From the NCBI RefSeq assembly GCF_903772925.1, contig NZ_LR812090.1:3841830-3905829 (forward strand): a stretch of DNA of 64,000 nucleotides, in the 5' to 3' direction. The stretch is from Alteromonas macleodii (GTDB taxonomy: Bacteria > Pseudomonadota > Gammaproteobacteria > Enterobacterales > Alteromonadaceae). Within the stretch, counting starts at the first letter, position 1. The number at the start of each line of letters is the position of its first letter. Positions 44,870-54,664 of this stretch are shown here, one piece after another. The translations under genes were made by a program, and so were the position numbers. A model generated the notes under the pieces. That model searched no databases, had not been told where the DNA came from, and was given only the letters and a program-made list of their open reading frames with translations.

Positions 44870-45436
44870 ATGGAACATCAATTAAGTGCTATTTTTGTTA
44901 CTTACGAAATGGTCGAATCTGCCTTACAAAATATTGAAAGGCTGCTTGTATCTATGCCCACTGCAAATATTATTCTTGTAGATAACTCGCCCCAAGAATA
45001 TAAAGATAAGGACATATATAAAAATACTATAGAGCGTATTACTTCGAAGGTTACTTATTTAGAAAACTGCACGAACTCAAGGTTTACCGCTTATAACCTA
45101 GCGCTTAAGACGGTAACTAACGGAAGAGTGGTATTTAGAACTGATGACGACGTTTTTAACGAGTCTGTCACAGCAAAGGTTGCTAAAGCTTCTTGGCGCG
45201 GTTTTGCAGTTACGCCCCATAAGTTCGATGGCCAGCTACAGGTTAAACAGGATCACCAACGCCCCATAGAAACTTGCGTATTTGACCATCACTTTCTTAA
45301 AGGTTTATTACCGTTTGAGAACGCTACCAGCGCTGACTGGAAACTTTTAAAGCGCGCATACGATAAACAATGCCCCGAAACATTTGCCGAAGTCATACTT
45401 CATAAAATTGGTCATGGCAGAGAAATGACCGCATGA
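44870..45436 (+). CDS. GT-A-type glycosyltransferase-like protein
   Basis: A 188-residue protein with a short GT-A nucleotide-sugar fold: LSAIFVTYEMVESALQNIERL at the start, IILVDNSP (donor-binding strand), LENCTNSRFTAYNLALK, and a DxD-type motif in VFRTDDDVF (about 85-93). It is shorter than typical family 2 enzymes and lacks the C-terminal acceptor part, so it may be minimal. Its stop overlaps the next gene's ATG by 4 bases (ATGA). It belongs to a five-gene glycosyltransferase operon. Confidence 0.75.
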   Translation: MEHQLSAIFVTYEMVESALQNIERLLVSMPTANIILVDNSPQEYKDKDIYKNTIERITSKVTYLENCTNSRFTAYNLALKTVTNGRVVFRTDDDVFNESVTAKVAKASWRGFAVTPHKFDGQLQVKQDHQRPIETCVFDHHFLKGLLPFENATSADWKLLKRAYDKQCPETFAEVILHKIGHGREMTA

Positions 45437-46458
45437 AAATAGCCATAATTGCACATCCCCGCTTTCCTATTAAGTCGCCTTTCCCAGGGGGCCTAGAAGC
45501 CTTTATTGCGTCTTTAGTTCCGCAATATAGTGCTCATGCAGAAGTTACGGTCTACGCGCATCCGGGTTCTCAAATCCAGAGCCCAGCTAAACTCGTAACG
45601 TTTCCGTTCGATACCGAAGCCCACAAGCAATACCCCGAGCTAATAGAAAATGATTTTTTGCTTAAAGTTATGAACGATATACGGCTTAAAGGCTTTGACG
45701 CTGTTCATAACAATGCTATCAGCCCTATTCCAACAGTTTGGGCATGTAAATACGACATTCCCATGCTTACAACCTTGCATACACCACCTTACAGCCGCCT
45801 CAAAGCATCGGCAGAACTCTCTTCTTTGTCTCCTTTTGTTCATTACAATGCTGTTTCCTATAGCGTCGCTGAGGCGTGGCAACCCTACATCAACGATACA
45901 ATAGACGTTATTTACAATGGTATTGAGTTATCCCAGTGGGAAGGTAAAAAACAAACAAAAGATCAGCTATTCAGTTTTGGCAGAATTGTCCCTTCTAAAG
46001 GTTTCGACCTGGCGATTAAGGCAGCTAACCTTGTGGGTATAGAGCTCAACATCGCTGGCCCTATTTACGATCAAAACTATTTTGATGACAAGATATCGCC
46101 TTTCTTGGGCAAAGCCGTGAACTACTTAGGCCATTTGAATCATATGGAGTTACAAAGCCAGTTAAAGAAATCGCGAGCGGCAATTTTTGGCGTACGCTGG
46201 GACGAACCCTTTGGACTTTCTACCGTAGAGGCCATGGCAACGGGTACCCCTGTAGCGGCTTTTAACCGGGGCGCGTTTCCAGAAGTCGTATCTAAAGAAG
46301 GTGGCGCCTTAGCACGGGGTAACAATGTAGAAAGCCTCGCCGAAGCTATAAGCGCTTCTTTAGATAAACATAGTCAGGATGTCATACATCGCGCTCATAG
46401 GTTTCCTTTAGACGCTATGTGTTCCGCTTACCTCGATAAACTGGCACGTGTTTCATGA
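45433..46458 (+). CDS. Family 4 glycosyltransferase
   Basis: A 341-residue GT-B enzyme. The N-terminal acceptor domain has PRFPIKSPFPGGLEAFIASL, and the C-terminal donor domain has SFGRIVPSKGFDLAIKAANL and FGVRWDEPFGLSTVEAMATG. EPFGLSTVEAMA is the E-x7-E motif of retaining family 4 enzymes. Cytoplasmic, no signal peptide. It overlaps both neighbours by 4 bases. It is paralogous to the next gene, so the two probably add related sugars in sequence. The product is unknown. Confidence 0.88.
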   Translation: MKIAIIAHPRFPIKSPFPGGLEAFIASLVPQYSAHAEVTVYAHPGSQIQSPAKLVTFPFDTEAHKQYPELIENDFLLKVMNDIRLKGFDAVHNNAISPIPTVWACKYDIPMLTTLHTPPYSRLKASAELSSLSPFVHYNAVSYSVAEAWQPYINDTIDVIYNGIELSQWEGKKQTKDQLFSFGRIVPSKGFDLAIKAANLVGIELNIAGPIYDQNYFDDKISPFLGKAVNYLGHLNHMELQSQLKKSRAAIFGVRWDEPFGLSTVEAMATGTPVAAFNRGAFPEVVSKEGGALARGNNVESLAEAISASLDKHSQDVIHRAHRFPLDAMCSAYLDKLARVS

Positions 46459-47495
46459 AGGTTTTAATGGTAACAAGCCCCATCGTATCGTTGAGAGAGC
46501 CCTTTAAAGGTGGGACCGAATCATTTGTCGTTAGCCTTGCAAACGGTATGGCTGATGCGGGGCATCAGGTAGATGTTCTATGTAAAGATGCCGACGAAGA
46601 CAATAAGTTTAATACGCTTCACCTACAAGAGTCGGCTTTTCGTATGACTGACGCCATCACTAGTGAAACTGAAGGTCAAAAGCTCTATCAGGCTGCCCAA
46701 TTCGGACTTTTCAATGCGGATGATTACGACGTTATACACTTTCACAGCTATTACCACGCCATGTTTGAATTCGCTTATTTTCATCAAAGACGTAACATTG
46801 TGACGCTACACAGCCCTTTGTCCGAACGACTTGCGCTTACGCATAAATTGAACAGTATGAGAAGTGACGATAGGTATGTGGCGGTATCGCAACGTTTAGC
46901 TGATGAGTGGTGTTCGACCATATCCACCCCAATTGATGTTGTACAAAATGGTATTGACCTCTCACGACTGCCTCCTGCAGCGCCAAATAAACAGAGCGAC
47001 TTAGTATGGGTAGGCAGGCTGTGCAAAGAGAAGAACCCCGAAGCCGCCATTCGCGCGGCGAAGCAGCTTAATATTTCGTTGATACTTTACGGCCCGATTA
47101 GTGATGAAACGCACTTCAACAACGATATCGCACCGTTATTGGATGCCAAGATAAAATACGGCGGGCATCTACCACAGCAAGTACTCTATGAAAGGATCTC
47201 TGAAGCTCGTGCCCTCTTTATTACTTCGCTTTGGAAGGAACCCTTTGGCTTAGTAACACTTGAGTCACTAGCGATGGGTACGCCAGTTATAGGAACAACC
47301 CAAGCGATTCCCAGCGAGCTTCGTGTGCCTCCTTTAACCCAAACTATAGATCTTGACGACGTAGAATCACTACTAAGTGCCTATCGGGAAGCAGTCAGTA
47401 TATCGGCAAGCCGATGCCAAAAGGCAGCCCGACAATTTGATATCTCCAATACTGTTAAGGCATACGAGCGCATCTATGAACAAGCAAAAACCTAA
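46455..47495 (+). CDS. Family 4 glycosyltransferase (second copy)
   Basis: A 346-residue GT-B enzyme resembling the preceding gene: SLREPFKGGTESFVVSLANG near the start, WVGRLCKEKNPEAAIRAA, and the E-x7-E motif in LWKEPFGLVTLESLAMG near residue 267. It overlaps the previous gene by 4 bases and the next by 20. Two diverged family 4 enzymes in tandem suggest two glycosidic bonds of one glycan. Donor and acceptor cannot be told from sequence. Confidence 0.88.
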   Translation: MKVLMVTSPIVSLREPFKGGTESFVVSLANGMADAGHQVDVLCKDADEDNKFNTLHLQESAFRMTDAITSETEGQKLYQAAQFGLFNADDYDVIHFHSYYHAMFEFAYFHQRRNIVTLHSPLSERLALTHKLNSMRSDDRYVAVSQRLADEWCSTISTPIDVVQNGIDLSRLPPAAPNKQSDLVWVGRLCKEKNPEAAIRAAKQLNISLILYGPISDETHFNNDIAPLLDAKIKYGGHLPQQVLYERISEARALFITSLWKEPFGLVTLESLAMGTPVIGTTQAIPSELRVPPLTQTIDLDDVESLLSAYREAVSISASRCQKAARQFDISNTVKAYERIYEQAKT

Positions 47496-48519
47496 AATCC
47501 TTTTTTACATACACCATCATGGCAAAGGTCATTTATCACGAGTGCAGCTGCTGATCCCTATTATTGAAAAATTTGCTCACGTTTCATTAATTATTGCGCA
47601 AGATGACTTTTTACCGGCAGTGAAGTGTGCGCTACCAGAAAGGAAAATTGTTACCTTGCCGTCGAAATGGTCTTCATCCGATGTGGGTAAAAAGCGTACT
47701 TTCGATACCGCGTTTGAAGGTGTTCCTTTATCTGCACAATCTACTCTACGCGCCAGTTTCTTTGTAAACCATCTGCAAAAAGAGGCTTATGATGGCTTTA
47801 TTAGCGATGTTTCGGCCGAGCTTACTATTTACGCTCGCGGTGCAGGTATACCCGTTTTAATGCAGCGACACTCGGGAGATATATCTATCGATCCTACTCA
47901 GGTTTTCGCATACCAGTGTGCAAATGCTTTATACGCTCCCTACCCACGACAGCTAGAAGCTGATGATTATGCTTTTTTCAACAAAACGTATTTTTTAGGG
48001 AGCTTAGTTACAAGTAAGAATAACTCTGCGCACCATTACAACGGCATAAGTATTGTTCACAGTGACCATGAAGTTATCAATGCAATATGCGAGGCTTTAC
48101 TGCCAATAGAATTGCCTATAACAGCTATTGGTAGTGAACGCTCCAACCTACATCATTTAGACAAGATTACGTACTACGAACAGGTGAGTGACATAACGCA
48201 CTCTGCGAACACCGACATAATTTTTTGCAGCGGGGGAAACAATACCCTATGTGAGCTGCTCGCGGCCGGCAAGAAGCTTATTGTTATTCCAGAGCCACGT
48301 CCCTATGAAGAACAAACCGCTAAGGCGATAAAATTATCTGATATTAATGCAGCTGTTCACTTGCCAAAAGCTGAGTTGGCCAATGGAGAAAATATCATCA
48401 AGGCGCTAAAAGCTTCGAACGATATAAAGACTGACACTATTAACGATATGTTTGATACAAGCTCTTCATCGCAGTGGGAACAAAGCTTTGAAAATTTAAT
48501 AAGGGAGCATTTTTTATGA
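47476..48519 (+). CDS. MurG/family 28-like glycosyltransferase
   Basis: A 347-residue GT-B protein starting at the ATG at 47476 inside the end of the previous gene. The N-terminal glycine/histidine motif YIHHHGKGHLSRVQLLIPI and the C-terminal FCSGGNNTLCELLAAGKKLIVIPEPRPYEEQ are those of MurG/UGT-like enzymes (the GG-T-E-L-AGKP pattern). In-frame starts further upstream would overlap the previous gene much more. It overlaps the next gene by 4 bases. Confidence 0.8.
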   Translation: MNKQKPKILFYIHHHGKGHLSRVQLLIPIIEKFAHVSLIIAQDDFLPAVKCALPERKIVTLPSKWSSSDVGKKRTFDTAFEGVPLSAQSTLRASFFVNHLQKEAYDGFISDVSAELTIYARGAGIPVLMQRHSGDISIDPTQVFAYQCANALYAPYPRQLEADDYAFFNKTYFLGSLVTSKNNSAHHYNGISIVHSDHEVINAICEALLPIELPITAIGSERSNLHHLDKITYYEQVSDITHSANTDIIFCSGGNNTLCELLAAGKKLIVIPEPRPYEEQTAKAIKLSDINAAVHLPKAELANGENIIKALKASNDIKTDTINDMFDTSSSSQWEQSFENLIREHFL

Positions 48520-49352
48520 GTTTTTCTGTGGTTACGCTAGTAAAGGGTAGAAAAAAACAACTCGAAAACATGCTTGAAAGTATTAAACAGAGCACAATAG
48601 TCCCGAGTGAAATCGTAATTGTTTGGATGGAAGAGGAAACACGCAACGCACGCGTTGAAGATGAAGACCTGAACATTAAACAGCTTTACCTGGAAAAAGG
48701 AGAACTCCCCTTAGCTAAGGCTCGAAATTTGGGATTTGAAAATACGACTCACGAACGCGTTATATTTTTGGATGTTGACTGCATATGCAGTCCTACTCTT
48801 TTTGAAGGATTGCTTAACGGCCTGAAAGACAAAACCATTACCTCTGCATATGCAAGATACCTCCCCTACATTCCTTTGTCTGGCTTGTATACGCAAATTG
48901 AACAAGATGCTCTTTCACACCCTAAACGAGCGCAACTTGACGCAAACACACCACTACCTCATAAGAAGTTTTGGTCACTTGTTTTTGCATTGCGCAAGGA
49001 TGATTTCTACGTCATTGGCGGATTTGATGAGGATTTCACAGGTTATGGTGGTGAAGACACCGACTTTGCAGAGCGATTTAATAAACAGTACTTCGATTTT
49101 ATTCTCATAGATGATGAAGTCTTACATCAATATCACTTTAAATATTCGCCCCCACTCAATTATTTAGAAGCAATCGTAGAGAACGCTAACCTCTTCTATC
49201 ACAAACATGGATATTTTGCGATGTATTCATGGCTACAAGAGTTTTGCAAAAGAAGTTATGTGACTTTTGATGAACGTAAGCATAATTTTAAAGTTGTGCG
49301 CTTGCCGCACCAATTAGATATCGAGTTAGCTCTGTCTACAAAACCCTACTAG
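48516..49352 (+). CDS. Family 2 glycosyltransferase with galactosyltransferase-type C-terminus
   Basis: A 278-residue GT-A enzyme. It has VVTLVKGRKKQLENMLESI, then the DxD motif in VIFLDVDCICSP (about 86-97), and a C-terminal IGGFDEDFTGYGGEDTDFAERF that matches the Glyco_transf_7C catalytic region of chondroitin-polymerase-type enzymes. It ends the operon. About 280 bp without a gene follow, where I see no strong terminator. Confidence 0.87.
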   Translation: MSFSVVTLVKGRKKQLENMLESIKQSTIVPSEIVIVWMEEETRNARVEDEDLNIKQLYLEKGELPLAKARNLGFENTTHERVIFLDVDCICSPTLFEGLLNGLKDKTITSAYARYLPYIPLSGLYTQIEQDALSHPKRAQLDANTPLPHKKFWSLVFALRKDDFYVIGGFDEDFTGYGGEDTDFAERFNKQYFDFILIDDEVLHQYHFKYSPPLNYLEAIVENANLFYHKHGYFAMYSWLQEFCKRSYVTFDERKHNFKVVRLPHQLDIELALSTKPY

Positions 49353-49630: not shown

Positions 49631-50182
49631 ATGGCGGACAAGAAGCCGAAGGATCAACAAGCGCAAGACGTACACGCAACGCAGAGCGCTCCCCAACCAG
49701 CTGACGAACTTGCTCAACTTAGAGAAATATTGTTTGGTCAAACAAACCGTGCTTTTCGCGCAGATCTTTCTGCCCTTGAGTCTCGTGTAAATGAAAGCTT
49801 CGCTAAATTAAACACGCATCTTGATAATCAGTTCAGTGATATACGTAAACTTATCGATGATCAGATCTCAGAGCTTTCTAATCAGCTAGCCAGCGCTAAT
49901 GACAACAACAGTAACGTACAAGAACAGCTTCAGCACACTACCGATAAGCTGCAAAGTGAACTGGAAATCGCTGAAACATCAGCGAAGAACGACAACGACG
50001 CTTTAGAAGCTCATGTAGTGAAAGAATTGGAGTCACTAGACAACTTGTTTAGCAAGCGTCATCAAGAGTTGTTAGAAAAGCTTCAGCAAGTTACTAGCGA
50101 GCTTTCAGAGAGTAAAACTGACAGGAAAACACTGGCAAACTTACTTTCAACCATGGCAACCAACCTCGCTACTGATCATTAA
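49631..50182 (+). CDS. Coiled-coil protein of the GTPase/OmpA cassette
   Basis: A 183-residue acidic protein without signal peptide or membrane helix. After a disordered Gln/Ala-rich start it has the short motif LAQLREILFG (about 27-36), then long coiled coil to the end (Leu/Gln/Glu/Ser heptads, including LDNQFSDIRKLIDDQISELS). The same short motif (LEKVRELLIG) opens the next gene's product. AGACATTTT lies before the ATG, so the ribosome site is weak (CCGGAGAC at 49617-49624). It stops 3 bases before the OmpA-domain gene. A scaffold role is inferred from the coiled coil and linkage. Confidence 0.75.
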   Translation: MADKKPKDQQAQDVHATQSAPQPADELAQLREILFGQTNRAFRADLSALESRVNESFAKLNTHLDNQFSDIRKLIDDQISELSNQLASANDNNSNVQEQLQHTTDKLQSELEIAETSAKNDNDALEAHVVKELESLDNLFSKRHQELLEKLQQVTSELSESKTDRKTLANLLSTMATNLATDH

Positions 50183-50185
50183 TTA

Positions 50186-51949
50186 ATGAGTGACAAGGTG
50201 CCGTCGTCTGAATTGCCGGACAACTCTCTTGAAAAAGTCAGAGAGCTACTTATTGGACGAGATGACAAATTCGTTCAACAGAAGCTTGATCGCGATGCAA
50301 AGGGCTTTGTGAGCAATGTTGTTTCTGAAGCATTATTTGAACGGGAAACAAAAGATGGCTCGGTTAACAAAGTTCTTGTTCCCCTTGTCGAAAAATCACT
50401 GCACCGCTCTATTGAAGCTAACAGTGAAAAGATTGTAGGCACACTTTACCCGTTGGTCGGTACGTTAGTAAGAAAAGCCGTTTCTTCATTTCTCGTTGAG
50501 TTTGTTGAGCGAACCAATGCATTAATCGAGAATAGCTTTAGCCCCAAAAGTATCTCGTGGCGCTTTAAAGCCTGGCAGTCTGGCGTTAAATACTCTGAAT
50601 ATGTTGCTTCACAAATTTACCAGTATCAAGTTCAACAGCTGCTCGTCATTCATCGAGAAACCGGCACGTTACTTCACAGTATCTCCTCAGATCCGGATAA
50701 AGAAAAAGATGCGGATCTCATTTCATCAATGCTTGTGGCTATCAATGATTTTGTTGCAGATGCGTTTGGTGTCACCGCTACCGAGTCTGATAACGAGCTG
50801 GGCGAGATTAAAACAGAAGATTTTACGCTGTTGATTAAAATTGGCCCTCAAGCGTTACTTGTCGCAGCGGTAACGGGAAGTATTCCTCCTGAGGTTCGCG
50901 GTAAGCTTCAGCAGGCTTTGGAAGATTTTCATCAGTTTTACCAACAACCATTAGTCAATTATGAGGGAGACAATGCCCCTTTTGAGGGATGCGAAACTAT
51001 CCTTGCGGATTGCTTGGTCAGCGAAAGAAAAGAAGGCGAAGGCAAAAAGTCAAAACGCTTGATAGGCGCTGCCGTGCTTTTGGTAATCTTCATCGCCTTA
51101 GCGGTACTTTCTTTCATGCGACTATCGCTAAGTATTTTAAAGAGCGAGCTGCACGAGCTTACGCCTCCCCCTGGTATCATTGTCACCGATACCTATATAT
51201 CAAATGGCATTGTACATACAAAAGTACTGCGCGACCCTATTTCCACCAGCATTGATCAATGGTTCAGCGACAATGGAATCGATGCAGAAAAGGTCACGGT
51301 AATTGAAGAGCCCTTTGTCTCTTTAAAACCAAGTGTGGTAGAGCGTAAACTTGAAACGCTCGTGAACCAGTACCCACTCAACGAGCTTGAAAGCATAACT
51401 ATAGAAAAAGAGGAAAACCGCAGATTCCTGATATCAGGAGCCGTGTATAACACAACCGCGATAGACCTTACTCAGCAAATAAGCGCAATCCCAGGTATAT
51501 CAGCAGTTTCCGTAGACACTACTGCCCTAAACGTAAAACCGGCTTATAACGTTGATGATGCTGCGCTTCAAAAAGCAACGTTAAACCGACTCGTTAATAA
51601 AGTTTCTTCACAAAATGTACTTTTTGCTACTAACCAAGAAGCGCTTTCTGAAGTACAGTTAGCAAAATTAGAGACACTGGCAAACGATATAAAACAACTA
51701 TTAATGCTTGCGGATAAAACAAATACTGTTGTGAGTATTATTGTAATGGGTGCCAGTGACAATTCAGGCTCAAGCGCACGCAATCGTGCCTTGAGCCAAA
51801 AACGAGCAGAGAATGTTGTGAATTCATTAATTTCACTTGGTGTAGAAAGTGATATCCTTATACCCGTAAGCTTAGGAGAGCTGCCATTGCAGAAGGCATC
51901 AATGGGGCGTTCAGTTATGTTAAATGTTTTAATATCCAGTGAGCAATAG
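50186..51949 (+). CDS. Inner-membrane protein with periplasmic BON-like and OmpA domains
   Basis: A 587-residue protein with no signal peptide. Residues 1-290 are cytoplasmic and helical, including the opening motif LEKVRELLIG and a conserved-looking helical core (LVGTLVRKAVSSFLVEFVERT). One membrane helix follows (about 293-314). The periplasmic part has a BON-like alpha/beta unit (about 395-455, RRFLISGAVYNTTAIDLTQQ) and a C-terminal OmpA/MotB-type domain (about 470-587) with DNSGSSARNRALSQKRAENVV, which should bind peptidoglycan. It is followed 15 bp later by a Ras-like GTPase. Its topology makes it a natural bridge from cytoplasmic signals to the wall; that role is inference. Confidence 0.82.
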   Translation: MSDKVPSSELPDNSLEKVRELLIGRDDKFVQQKLDRDAKGFVSNVVSEALFERETKDGSVNKVLVPLVEKSLHRSIEANSEKIVGTLYPLVGTLVRKAVSSFLVEFVERTNALIENSFSPKSISWRFKAWQSGVKYSEYVASQIYQYQVQQLLVIHRETGTLLHSISSDPDKEKDADLISSMLVAINDFVADAFGVTATESDNELGEIKTEDFTLLIKIGPQALLVAAVTGSIPPEVRGKLQQALEDFHQFYQQPLVNYEGDNAPFEGCETILADCLVSERKEGEGKKSKRLIGAAVLLVIFIALAVLSFMRLSLSILKSELHELTPPPGIIVTDTYISNGIVHTKVLRDPISTSIDQWFSDNGIDAEKVTVIEEPFVSLKPSVVERKLETLVNQYPLNELESITIEKEENRRFLISGAVYNTTAIDLTQQISAIPGISAVSVDTTALNVKPAYNVDDAALQKATLNRLVNKVSSQNVLFATNQEALSEVQLAKLETLANDIKQLLMLADKTNTVVSIIVMGASDNSGSSARNRALSQKRAENVVNSLISLGVESDILIPVSLGELPLQKASMGRSVMLNVLISSEQ

Positions 51950-51964
51950 TAAGGAAGCTTTGCG

Positions 51965-52450
51965 GTGATACAGAAAAAAGTTTGTATTCTAGGGCCCACT
52001 GGTGTTGGTAAAACAAGCCTAGTAAAGCAGTTTGTCGAAGGTATTTTTTCCGAAAAGTACAAGACAACTATTGGCGTAAAAATAGACAAAAAACAAGTCA
52101 ATAAAGAAGGCCGAGGTGTTCAGCTTCTCCTTTGGGATTTAGAGGGTATTGATAGATACTGCGGCTTTAATCCCCGCTACCTTCGCGGCGCCAGTGCTTA
52201 TATTATTGTGGTTGATCAAACTCGCTCTCAATCTTTGCTTGAGGGTATAGAAATCCTTGACCTTGCACGCGAGCATTACCCCGACATTCCCGCCTTTTTC
52301 GTAGTGAATAAAACTGACCTCCCCACTAGCTGGCATTGGAGTGAAGAAGAGCTGAATAATTACGCACAGAGATTTTCTTCACTTACTAAAACAAGTGCGA
52401 AAACCGGTGAAAATGTAGAAAACTTATTCAGTACAATTGCGTTTTGGTAG
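51965..52450 (+). CDS. Ras/Rab-like small GTPase
   Basis: A 161-residue single-domain GTPase with all five G motifs: G1 GPTGVGKTS (10-18), G2 Thr35 in TTIGVKI, G3 DLEG (58-61, preceded by Trp57 as in Rab WDTAG), G4 NKTD (115-118) and G5 SAK (144-146). The residue after the G3 glycine is Ile62, where Ras has catalytic Gln61, so intrinsic GTP hydrolysis may be slow and need a partner. There is no C-terminal cysteine for lipidation. It starts with GTG, 8 bases after AAGGAAG. Bacterial relatives such as MglA set cell polarity and motility; here the neighbours are an OmpA-domain membrane protein and a c-di-GMP protein. Confidence 0.9.
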   Translation: MIQKKVCILGPTGVGKTSLVKQFVEGIFSEKYKTTIGVKIDKKQVNKEGRGVQLLLWDLEGIDRYCGFNPRYLRGASAYIIVVDQTRSQSLLEGIEILDLAREHYPDIPAFFVVNKTDLPTSWHWSEEELNNYAQRFSSLTKTSAKTGENVENLFSTIAFW

Positions 52451-52459
52451 GAGAATGCC

Positions 52460-54580
52460 ATGGATATCCATTTATTAAATGCGCTGGGCATAACTAACTG
52501 CGCGTTGTTTAAGTGTAACTCTGAAGACGACATCACGTGTTTAACACCGGAACTTCCATGGTTATTGAACGTAGTTTCGCTTGACGAAAACAATAAGCTG
52601 CAAAAAAAGCACGTTCCATCGATCTTTTTAGATGATTTCTTTTTCGATGCTGATGAGGTTTGGAAAGGAGAAACGTCGTTCACCCTATCTTCCGGTTTTT
52701 GGACCGAACAAAACGAAAATCAGCTTTTGCGTCTTGAAGCCCTGGCTATAAATAGCGGCTCTGGCTCTCGCTATCTAGTGGTCAAGAACGTTGAAGAACA
52801 ATTTGATGAAAAACAACAGACGCTTCAAGCTGCCCGTGAATTGCTGTTAAGTCACCATGAAATTGTAGGACAGCACGAATACATTAGGCATAGATTAAAT
52901 AATGTGCTGCGCAAAAACACTCGACTACAAAAGCTCGTGCCGCCTATACAGCAAGCTATTCATAATTTAGAAACGGGTGTTGTTATTTTAGATAATGAAG
53001 GGGCGTTAATTTTAGACAACAAAGCTTCACACCGGCTTCTGTTGTGTAATAGCACTACACCAAGCTCTATACGTATCATGGAGCTAATCAAAGATATCGA
53101 CGCGCCGTCTACTTTTCTACCCGCATTAGTGCAACGTAAAGCACCGTGGCAAGGCGAAATATACTGGCAACCGGTAGACGATTATAAGGTTTGGCTTCAG
53201 GTCACTATCCACCCTGTATTACATGGCGAAGAGCTCACCCATTGGGTTTATTTGTTTACTGACATCACGCACATACATAATAAAGAAGAAAGTGTGCTTA
53301 CTGCCAGCGGCATGGATTCATTAACCAAAGTAGCCAATCGGAATTTGTTCACCGATACGGTAAGACGGTTAGTTCAGGAAGACACTCCTTTTAAGCTATT
53401 TATTATTGATATCTGCGATTTCAAAAAGATTAATGAGGCGCTGAGCTACCAATCTGGGGATGAAATCTTAAAATCATTTGCTTTGCGGCTACAGGCCTTT
53501 GTTGGAAATAGCGGGTTTATTGCAAGGATTGGCAGTAACGAGTTCGCACTCGTAAAACGAATAGATACGTTTAAAGATGTAAGTAGCAGCGAGTACGTAA
53601 AACAGCTTGTGAGCAAGCTAACCAAGACCTACACCGTGCTTAACGGCAGCGAGCCTAATTTAGGTATTAACATTGGTGAAGCAAGTTTTCCGCAAGATTG
53701 CTCTTCAGCAGAAACATTACTTCAATGTACAGATGTCGCACTTCAAGCTGCTAAATATCAGGGCAGAAACATCTCGTTAGTTTACAGCGAAGAGTTGCAT
53801 AGTCAGCATAATGCTATTTACGAACTTGAATCAGAACTGCGGCGAGCGATTGCAAACAATGAGCTAAAACTATTCCTACAGCCTATTGTTGACCTTTCCA
53901 CTGGAAAAATCGTCAAGTGCGAAGCGTTAACGCGATGGATAACACCAGAAGGTAAGTTTATTTCGCCGGAAGTTTTTATACCATTAGCAGAGAAAAGTGA
54001 GCTCATTTTTCCCTTTGGCGAATGGCTTATTAATGAAGCTTGTGCCGCCATTGAGGCACTAAAGGCATCTAACCTAGATATCAGGTTAGCTATCAATATA
54101 TCCGGCCGACAAGTATCAGATTTAGCGCTACTAAACCAAATTAAGAATGCCCTGGAAGACCACCAGCTTTTCGGTTCTAACCTTTCGATTGAACTTACAG
54201 AGAGCGTATTCATTGAGAGCTTGGAAACAGTATCCATATTACTAAATGAACTTAGAGCTATGGGTATTACTGTATCAATTGACGATTTTGGTACAGGCTT
54301 TAGCTCACTTGTCTATTTGAAAAAGTTGCCCATTGATGAGCTTAAGATTGACCGCTCTTTCGTAAGCGAACTAGAGAAGAACACCGACGACCAAGCTATC
54401 GTTCAGGCGATTCTAGGGCTTGCGAATAATCTAAATATCAAAATAATTGCTGAAGGCATTGAAACGCCACAACAGCAGCAGTTTCTACAGAATCACCAAT
54501 GCGCATACGGCCAAGGGTATTTATATCAGCGACCCGTTGCGATTGATGAGTTCATCTCACTTGCAAGAAAGCTCAAGTAA
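52460..54580 (+). CDS. PAS-like, degenerate GGDEF and EAL protein of the GTPase cassette
   Basis: A 706-residue cytoplasmic protein. Residues 1-170 are of unknown fold, ending in a helical linker. A PAS-like domain follows (about 170-275, NLETGVVILDNEGALILDN), then a GGDEF domain whose signature is GSNEF (358-362), so cyclase activity is doubtful. The EAL domain is intact: EAL at 488-490, NISGRQVSD, IELTESVF, DDFGTGFSS starting at 608, KIDRSFV. It is therefore a likely c-di-GMP phosphodiesterase. AGGAGAA precedes the ATG, 9 bp after the GTPase gene, and a terminator follows the operon. Confidence 0.9.
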   Translation: MDIHLLNALGITNCALFKCNSEDDITCLTPELPWLLNVVSLDENNKLQKKHVPSIFLDDFFFDADEVWKGETSFTLSSGFWTEQNENQLLRLEALAINSGSGSRYLVVKNVEEQFDEKQQTLQAARELLLSHHEIVGQHEYIRHRLNNVLRKNTRLQKLVPPIQQAIHNLETGVVILDNEGALILDNKASHRLLLCNSTTPSSIRIMELIKDIDAPSTFLPALVQRKAPWQGEIYWQPVDDYKVWLQVTIHPVLHGEELTHWVYLFTDITHIHNKEESVLTASGMDSLTKVANRNLFTDTVRRLVQEDTPFKLFIIDICDFKKINEALSYQSGDEILKSFALRLQAFVGNSGFIARIGSNEFALVKRIDTFKDVSSSEYVKQLVSKLTKTYTVLNGSEPNLGINIGEASFPQDCSSAETLLQCTDVALQAAKYQGRNISLVYSEELHSQHNAIYELESELRRAIANNELKLFLQPIVDLSTGKIVKCEALTRWITPEGKFISPEVFIPLAEKSELIFPFGEWLINEACAAIEALKASNLDIRLAINISGRQVSDLALLNQIKNALEDHQLFGSNLSIELTESVFIESLETVSILLNELRAMGITVSIDDFGTGFSSLVYLKKLPIDELKIDRSFVSELEKNTDDQAIVQAILGLANNLNIKIIAEGIETPQQQQFLQNHQCAYGQGYLYQRPVAIDEFISLARKLK

Positions 54581-54607
54581 TTTACAGCCTTTTATGCAAA
54601 ATAATAC

Positions 54608-54635
54608 AAAAAGCCGGAACTTGTTCCGGCTTTTT
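54608..54635. terminator. Bidirectional terminator
   Basis: AAAAAGCCGGAAC (54608-54620) pairs perfectly with GTTCCGGCTTTTT (54623-54635). It lies between the end of the GTPase cassette and convergent fghA. Confidence 0.93.
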
Positions 54636-54664
54636 AGTGCACTTCTTAACTTAAATGAACACGC

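Follow-up and report, generated by a model that had tools for sequence, protein, structure and literature searches.

How does a small Ras-like GTPase, encoded between a wall-anchored membrane protein and a probable cyclic di-GMP (c-di-GMP) phosphodiesterase, take part in signalling, and do these genes form a system of their own? The question is raised by four adjoining genes in a 64,000-nucleotide stretch of Alteromonas macleodii DNA (NZ_LR812090.1, positions 3,841,830 to 3,905,829; hereafter the window), which belongs to a genome assembled as one contig of 4.67 Mb. The four open reading frames (ORFs) are tightly packed, with 3, 15 and 9 bp between successive genes, in agreement with the preliminary description of this DNA:

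49631 to 50182, + strand: gene of protein 1, a 183-aa ORF from the ORF list; cytoplasmic coiled-coil protein
50186 to 51949, + strand: gene of protein 2, a 587-aa ORF; wall-anchored inner-membrane protein
51965 to 52450, + strand: gene of protein 3, a 161-aa ORF with a GTG start; Ras-like GTPase of the Group 1 Rup type
52460 to 54580, + strand: gene of protein 4, a 706-aa ORF; output protein with an adaptor, a weak PAS match, a degenerate GGDEF domain and an EAL domain

The second part of the question has a direct answer. Judged from its sequence, the locus belongs to the Group 1 Rup signalling cassettes; it is a further example of that class and not a separate system. Group 1 Rup GTPases were defined by genome comparison by Wuichet and Søgaard-Andersen in 2014, with gammaproteobacteria among their hosts; they were described as lacking the G3 glutamine and as having three kinds of neighbour: a coiled-coil gene; a gene for a domain of unknown function, in many cases with a membrane helix and then an OmpA domain after it; and an output gene whose product, in the typical case either a histidine kinase or a fusion of diguanylate cyclase and phosphodiesterase, carries an invariant N-terminal glutamine (PMC4316618). 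The cassette fits every published feature that could be compared: coiled-coil, OmpA membrane-protein, GTPase and signalling output genes adjoin, the GTPase has no G3 glutamine, the N-terminal region of the output protein holds an invariant glutamine, and no MglB-type gene is coupled to the set, the whole genome giving 0 matches to the Pfam roadblock family PF03259. Because the cassette matches the four-gene neighbourhood published in 2014, the earlier claim that no such system had been described was wrong (PMC4316618). The Rup GTPases were separated in 2014 on the ground that no MglB-type roadblock partner had been found for them, and by the account in that paper no Rup member had been experimentally characterised as of 2014. 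New here are the prediction that the domain of unknown function is a longin fold, the HD, class III cyclase and PP2C outputs, two types of adaptor in the output proteins, and a motif common to proteins 1 and 2. A search of the open-access literature, with subscription papers mostly outside its scope, found no report of a longin identity of the domain or of HD, cyclase or PP2C outputs of Rup, and these three classes are unnamed in the 2014 paper's section on outputs (PMC4316618).

As to the first part of the question, the reading that we hold to be somewhat better than even is that a wall-linked longin platform controls a GTPase which borrows its partner's glutamine and gates an output enzyme. 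The evidence begins with the gene order. A named genome collection was surveyed for relatives of protein 2; it yielded 284, and the analysis used the best 80, which lie in 79 loci. Their taxa, as recorded and with some phylum names inferred, were Pseudomonadota, Desulfobacterota, Cyanobacteriota, Planctomycetota, Verrucomicrobiota, Bacteroidota, Acidobacteriota, Gemmatimonadota and Coatesbacteria; many of the loci come from metagenome-assembled genomes (MAGs), and some phyla are represented by a single MAG. The preliminary description had offered conserved order in other genomes as its own check, and the order is kept, the OmpA gene being followed directly by the GTPase gene in 74 of the 79 loci (72 counted by script, with L169 and L176 added by hand where the script chose an over-long frame). 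The GTPase gene is nearby and rearranged in three further loci (L155, L178 and L189), and the contig ends first in the remaining two. Directly upstream of the OmpA gene, the coiled-coil gene was present in 77 loci, with a contig edge in one and no such gene found in one. Among 398 genomes of the phylum, the profile of the protein 2 N-terminal region matched in 50 and that of the GTPase in 49, with both in 47 (an overlap counted by hand); the five discordant genomes are G043 and G288, where protein 2 lies at a contig end, G208, where the GTPase lies near a contig start, G300 and G074. Within the genus, protein 2 was found in 26 of 59 genomes and the GTPase in the same 26; a 27th match to protein 2 was weak (E 2e-4, 57 profile positions covered). 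The cassette is thus more than a chance arrangement, since its order and its co-occurrence are both conserved. Six further loci (L067-L072) have more remote, much lower-scoring relatives of protein 2 with a GTPase beside them; protein 1 was found in only three of the six, and the group may form a separate branch of the system.

The named parts of the cassette were likewise confirmed by Pfam, which gave OmpA, Ras, GGDEF and EAL domains; protein 1 had no family above the cut-off, its only matches being sub-threshold and of coiled-coil type. Protein 3 matched Ras (PF00071) at 2.1e-29, the proteins of solved structure closest to it in sequence are Rab6 and Rab5, and it is the sole clear Ras-like GTPase found in the genome (102 bits, against 32.5, 27.1 and 24.6 for the other Pfam Ras matches). 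It had been described as a complete GTPase; all five G motifs (G1, G2, DxxG, NKxD and SAK) are indeed there, and what is missing is the catalytic glutamine of G3:

52133 to 52150, + strand: G3 motif WDLEGI, residues 57-62, with Ile in place of the catalytic glutamine of Ras/Rab

None of the 45 aligned relatives has glutamine at this site; 24 carry Glu, eight Ile and five Val, and the rest other residues, one of them Arg. In a tree, the 45 relatives and seven MglA-type GTPases, picked from beside roadblock genes, stood on opposite sides of one branch (100/100), which places protein 3 outside the MglA-type group. In Alteromonas sp. ALT199 (L078 and L116), the GTPase gene has an in-frame stop and a 129-residue open frame, with the other three genes open; the switch may have been lost here, or the sequence may be faulty.

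Protein 4 carries the counterpart of the missing residue in an N-terminal adaptor ahead of its enzyme domains:

52460 to 52939, + strand: N-terminal adaptor, residues 1-160 (31-row alignment A6), common to HD and histidine-kinase outputs of relatives
52826 to 52828, + strand: codon of Gln123, the adaptor glutamine present in all 31 rows of A6
53312 to 53770, + strand: GGDEF domain (PF00990, 3.6e-27) with the degenerate site GSNEF
53834 to 54535, + strand: EAL domain (PF00563, 2.1e-73), catalytic motifs intact

A canonical GGDEF site was found in four of 28 aligned relatives, the window protein being among the rows. Since the GGDEF site is degenerate and the EAL motifs (EALTRW, NISGRQ, ELTES, DDFGTG, KID and AEG) are intact, protein 4 is a probable c-di-GMP phosphodiesterase, in line with the preliminary description, whose proposal of a signalling role tied to the GTPase also gained support, with this probable enzyme as the output here. 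Across the 79 loci, with Pfam run on sampled proteins, the ORF that follows the GTPase gene was assigned to GGDEF-EAL proteins in 27, HD (HD-GYP-like) proteins in 12, class III nucleotidyl cyclases in 11, SpoIIE-type PP2C phosphatases in eight and a histidine kinase in one; nine were unclassified and 11 absent or unreadable.

The output proteins share an N-terminal adaptor that comes in two sequence types, aligned here from 49 of the 68 output ORFs beside GTPase genes, six from other genomes and the window protein. The window type has seven invariant columns in 31 rows, Gln123 included, and the other type has a pair of neighbouring glutamines in each of its 25 rows, so that a glutamine is present in all 56 aligned adaptors. 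When the two types were aligned with each other over 116 columns their glutamines coincided, in a weak match (P 0.012, probability 3.7%). We infer that Gln123 is the glutamine of the logo in figure 4A of the 2014 paper (PMC4316618). No family for the adaptor was found in Pfam or among PDB sequences, and we do not claim the PAS-like look that it has by eye. One output protein (L159:9102-10592) appears by eye to carry both adaptor types in tandem, followed by an HD domain. In two Desulfomonile MAGs (L155:9201-10150 and L189:9126-10115), the GTPase gene lies on the opposite strand beside a gene for a short protein of 142 and 151 aa, respectively; the adaptor can evidently stand alone, since these proteins consist of it with little else.

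Protein 2 is made up, in order, of a helical region, a predicted longin-fold domain, a membrane helix, a periplasmic alpha/beta region and an OmpA domain, the last found in 49 of 54 aligned relatives:

50618 to 51028, + strand: predicted cytoplasmic longin-fold domain, residues 145-281 (AlphaFold2 models, fold comparison)
51053 to 51157, + strand: predicted long helix with membrane span, residues 290-324 (AlphaFold2 model; hydrophobic stretch by eye)
51623 to 51880, + strand: periplasmic OmpA domain of the peptidoglycan-binding type, residues 480-565 (Pfam OmpA, 1.5e-9)

The AlphaFold2 model of the full-length protein reached a predicted local distance difference test score (pLDDT) of 80.0 and a predicted template modelling score (pTM) of 0.43. 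The 50 Foldseek matches first listed for this model were OmpA-type domains, and a second look found at least five longin rows at residues 146-281; because the OmpA-type matches filled the list, the domain was also modelled alone. Residues 118-285 then folded with a pLDDT of 79.2 and a pTM of 0.70. In the predicted models the domain has the order beta-beta-alpha-beta-beta-beta-alpha-alpha and is nearest to solved longin domains (Foldseek, VIA), with TRAPP, Mon1-Ccz1, CPLANE, SRX, Ragulator and MglB among the fold neighbours of the isolated domain. The first idea had been a roadblock identity by sequence: a 33-row profile found one roadblock chain among PDB sequences at E 0.21, and hhalign against a roadblock alignment gave P 0.0012, with controls at 0.027 to 0.34. 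Such profiles did not establish it, and the comparison of the predicted folds favoured longin over roadblock. A longin fold is what eukaryotes use to handle small Ras-like GTPases.

Proteins 1 and 2 have in common an LxxLRxLLFG-like stretch at the N-terminus, in the cassette of the form LxxLRxILFG. A first, stricter pattern matched 40 of 78 protein 1 rows, 35 of 79 protein 2 rows and three of 1,075 unrelated ORFs; relaxed after that count, the pattern matched 71, 57 and 20, respectively. The shared motif suggests a common partner, or that the helical regions of the two proteins pair.

The favoured scheme builds on what was observed, namely the gene set, its order and co-occurrence, the domain families, and the missing and invariant residues. 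Protein 2 would cross the inner membrane and grip the cell wall through its OmpA domain, with its longin domain facing the cytoplasm near the long helical protein 1. This domain would be the docking platform for protein 3, a role proposed because longin and roadblock domains serve small GTPases in this way elsewhere. GTP-bound protein 3 would then bind the adaptor of protein 4, whose glutamine, supplied in trans, would allow GTP hydrolysis; the engagement is proposed because the GTPase lacks its catalytic glutamine and the adaptor has an invariant one, and a part for the output glutamine in hydrolysis was already raised as a possibility by the 2014 authors (PMC4316618). The same binding would tell the output enzyme, in Alteromonas macleodii the degenerate-GGDEF/EAL protein, which state the switch is in, and the same input would drive other enzymes elsewhere. 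A flow from input to output is suggested by the first three genes, which stay constant while the outputs change. All contacts in this scheme are inferred, as are the direction in which regulation runs, the signal from the wall and the activities of the enzymes.

Several points weigh against the scheme. The longin assignment derives entirely from predicted models: Pfam scans of 33 members gave no longin family among the best 25 of 31 weak families, and a domain-only profile run against PDB sequences recovered neither longin chains (E up to 10) nor roadblock chains. With a 54-row alignment, hhalign against the roadblock alignment gave P 0.021, and a control, the helical region of protein 2, scored better at 0.005. 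A common fold by itself proves no function, and the longin domains of SNAREs and adaptors mostly serve roles other than holding GTPases. Among the genomes, G074 encodes protein 2, on a contig of 82 kb, and gave no GTPase match, and L121 keeps the first three genes with no adjoining output gene.

The strongest alternative is that protein 2 is no more than an anchor whose longin-fold domain binds protein 1 or lipids while the GTPase and the adaptor of protein 4 act alone. SNAREs and coat adaptors are among the longin fold neighbours of the domain, the missing and invariant glutamines tie the GTPase to the adaptor without calling on protein 2, and the common N-terminal motif suggests that proteins 1 and 2 pair up with each other. 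We nevertheless consider it unlikely, because the GTPase and protein 2 form the most constant pair of all (74 of 79 loci), one that L121 retains without an output gene, and because many of the fold neighbours named above are GTPase partners. Less likely still is a scheme that runs in reverse, in which sensing falls to the output protein, the adaptor is mainly a GTPase-activating protein (GAP), and it depends on the GTPase how active the wall-linked protein is or where it is placed. Such a role was suggested for the conservon GTPase in 2014, the adaptor glutamine would answer the need for a GAP acting in trans (PMC4316618), and the weak Pfam PAS match in protein 4 may give it an input of its own; a fixed input with exchangeable outputs nonetheless fits better with outputs that vary beside three genes that stay. 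The last alternative follows the preliminary description in taking the cassette for a switch devoted to GTP and c-di-GMP; used in the manner of MglA, it would serve polarity, motility or attachment. This reading can call on the GGDEF/EAL output here and on glycosyltransferase genes upstream in the window, but is very improbable given that relatives pair the same inputs with class III cyclases, PP2C or histidine kinases, that 32 of 79 loci have an output of another class (HD 12, a class that may still act on c-di-GMP, cyclase 11, PP2C 8, histidine kinase 1), that the GTPase is not of MglA type and that the genome has no Pfam roadblock protein.

The wall-linked platform, GTPase and glutamine adaptor may also be read more broadly, in a proposal to which we give a little less than even credence: bacteria of at least nine phyla, going by record titles, would have a true longin-GTPase pair, a counterpart of eukaryotic and Asgard Rab platforms, within a wall-gripping receptor. 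It would be a universal input that relays the state of the wall through the GTPase to any output behind a glutamine adaptor, whether that output works through c-di-GMP or a cyclic nucleotide or is a phosphatase or a kinase; the missing catalytic residue would come from the output.

The surroundings of the cassette were also inspected. Upstream, at 45433-49352, lie four ORFs of which the first and last match glycosyltransferase families, so that a link of the cassette to surface polysaccharide through these neighbours is possible. The interval that separates the output gene from a convergent esterase gene contains a stem of 13 pairs (54607-54636) with a T-rich tail on the - strand. Promoter-like sites numbered eight, against 10.9 expected in shuffles, and for that reason no promoter is claimed; one scan of viral contigs with the GTPase as query found no relative. 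Five genomes that lack the cassette (L205-L209) retain the esterase and acyltransferase genes at the site. The site looks variable, because in L206 (3740-9298) the esterase gene is adjoined by other genes in place of the cassette, for a MotA/ExbB-type channel, two VWA proteins and a PEGA/FGE-sulfatase protein. In L121 (9258-10112; Alteromonas profundi), an esterase ORF on the other strand starts 12 bp past the GTPase gene.

If the domain of protein 2 is a longin, both prokaryotic branches of Ras-like GTPases have partners of one fold group, which bears on the age of the pairing between small GTPases and longin/roadblock platforms. The scheme also offers a testable design, with one wall-linked input, many outputs behind one adaptor and a catalytic glutamine that comes from the output protein; the longin prediction and the range of outputs behind one adaptor are the parts that specialists would not expect. 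Among known systems, the cassette agrees with Group 1 Rup in its coiled-coil protein, its domain of unknown function with membrane helix and OmpA domain, its glutamine-less GTPase and its glutamine-bearing output. With MglA/MglB, where MglB is a roadblock GAP, and with the actinobacterial conservon, it shares a Ras-like GTPase that sits beside a protein of the roadblock/longin fold group, by prediction in the cassette, and is tied to signalling proteins; its GTPase belongs to another clade, however, its genome has no separate Pfam roadblock protein, and its platform itself has a membrane and wall anchor and, as predicted, a longin-type C-terminal helix. Longin domains of TRAPP, Mon1-Ccz1, CPLANE Fuzzy-Inturned, SRX and Lokiarchaea differ from the predicted one of the cassette, which is bacterial and shares its polypeptide with a membrane helix and an OmpA domain; similarity in sequence to these eukaryotic and Asgard partners was not found, and the likeness is one of predicted fold. 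The geometry in which Ypt1 is held by longin heterodimers resembles that of MglA/MglB (PMC10933270), and the longin/roadblock group has been listed as occurring in bacteria (PMC4917890). Finally, YfiB/YfiN resembles the cassette in linking an OmpA-type periplasmic domain to c-di-GMP, YfiB being among the fold neighbours of the OmpA domain of protein 2, and differs from it in having no GTPase and in that YfiB is an outer-membrane lipoprotein (PMC4887326).
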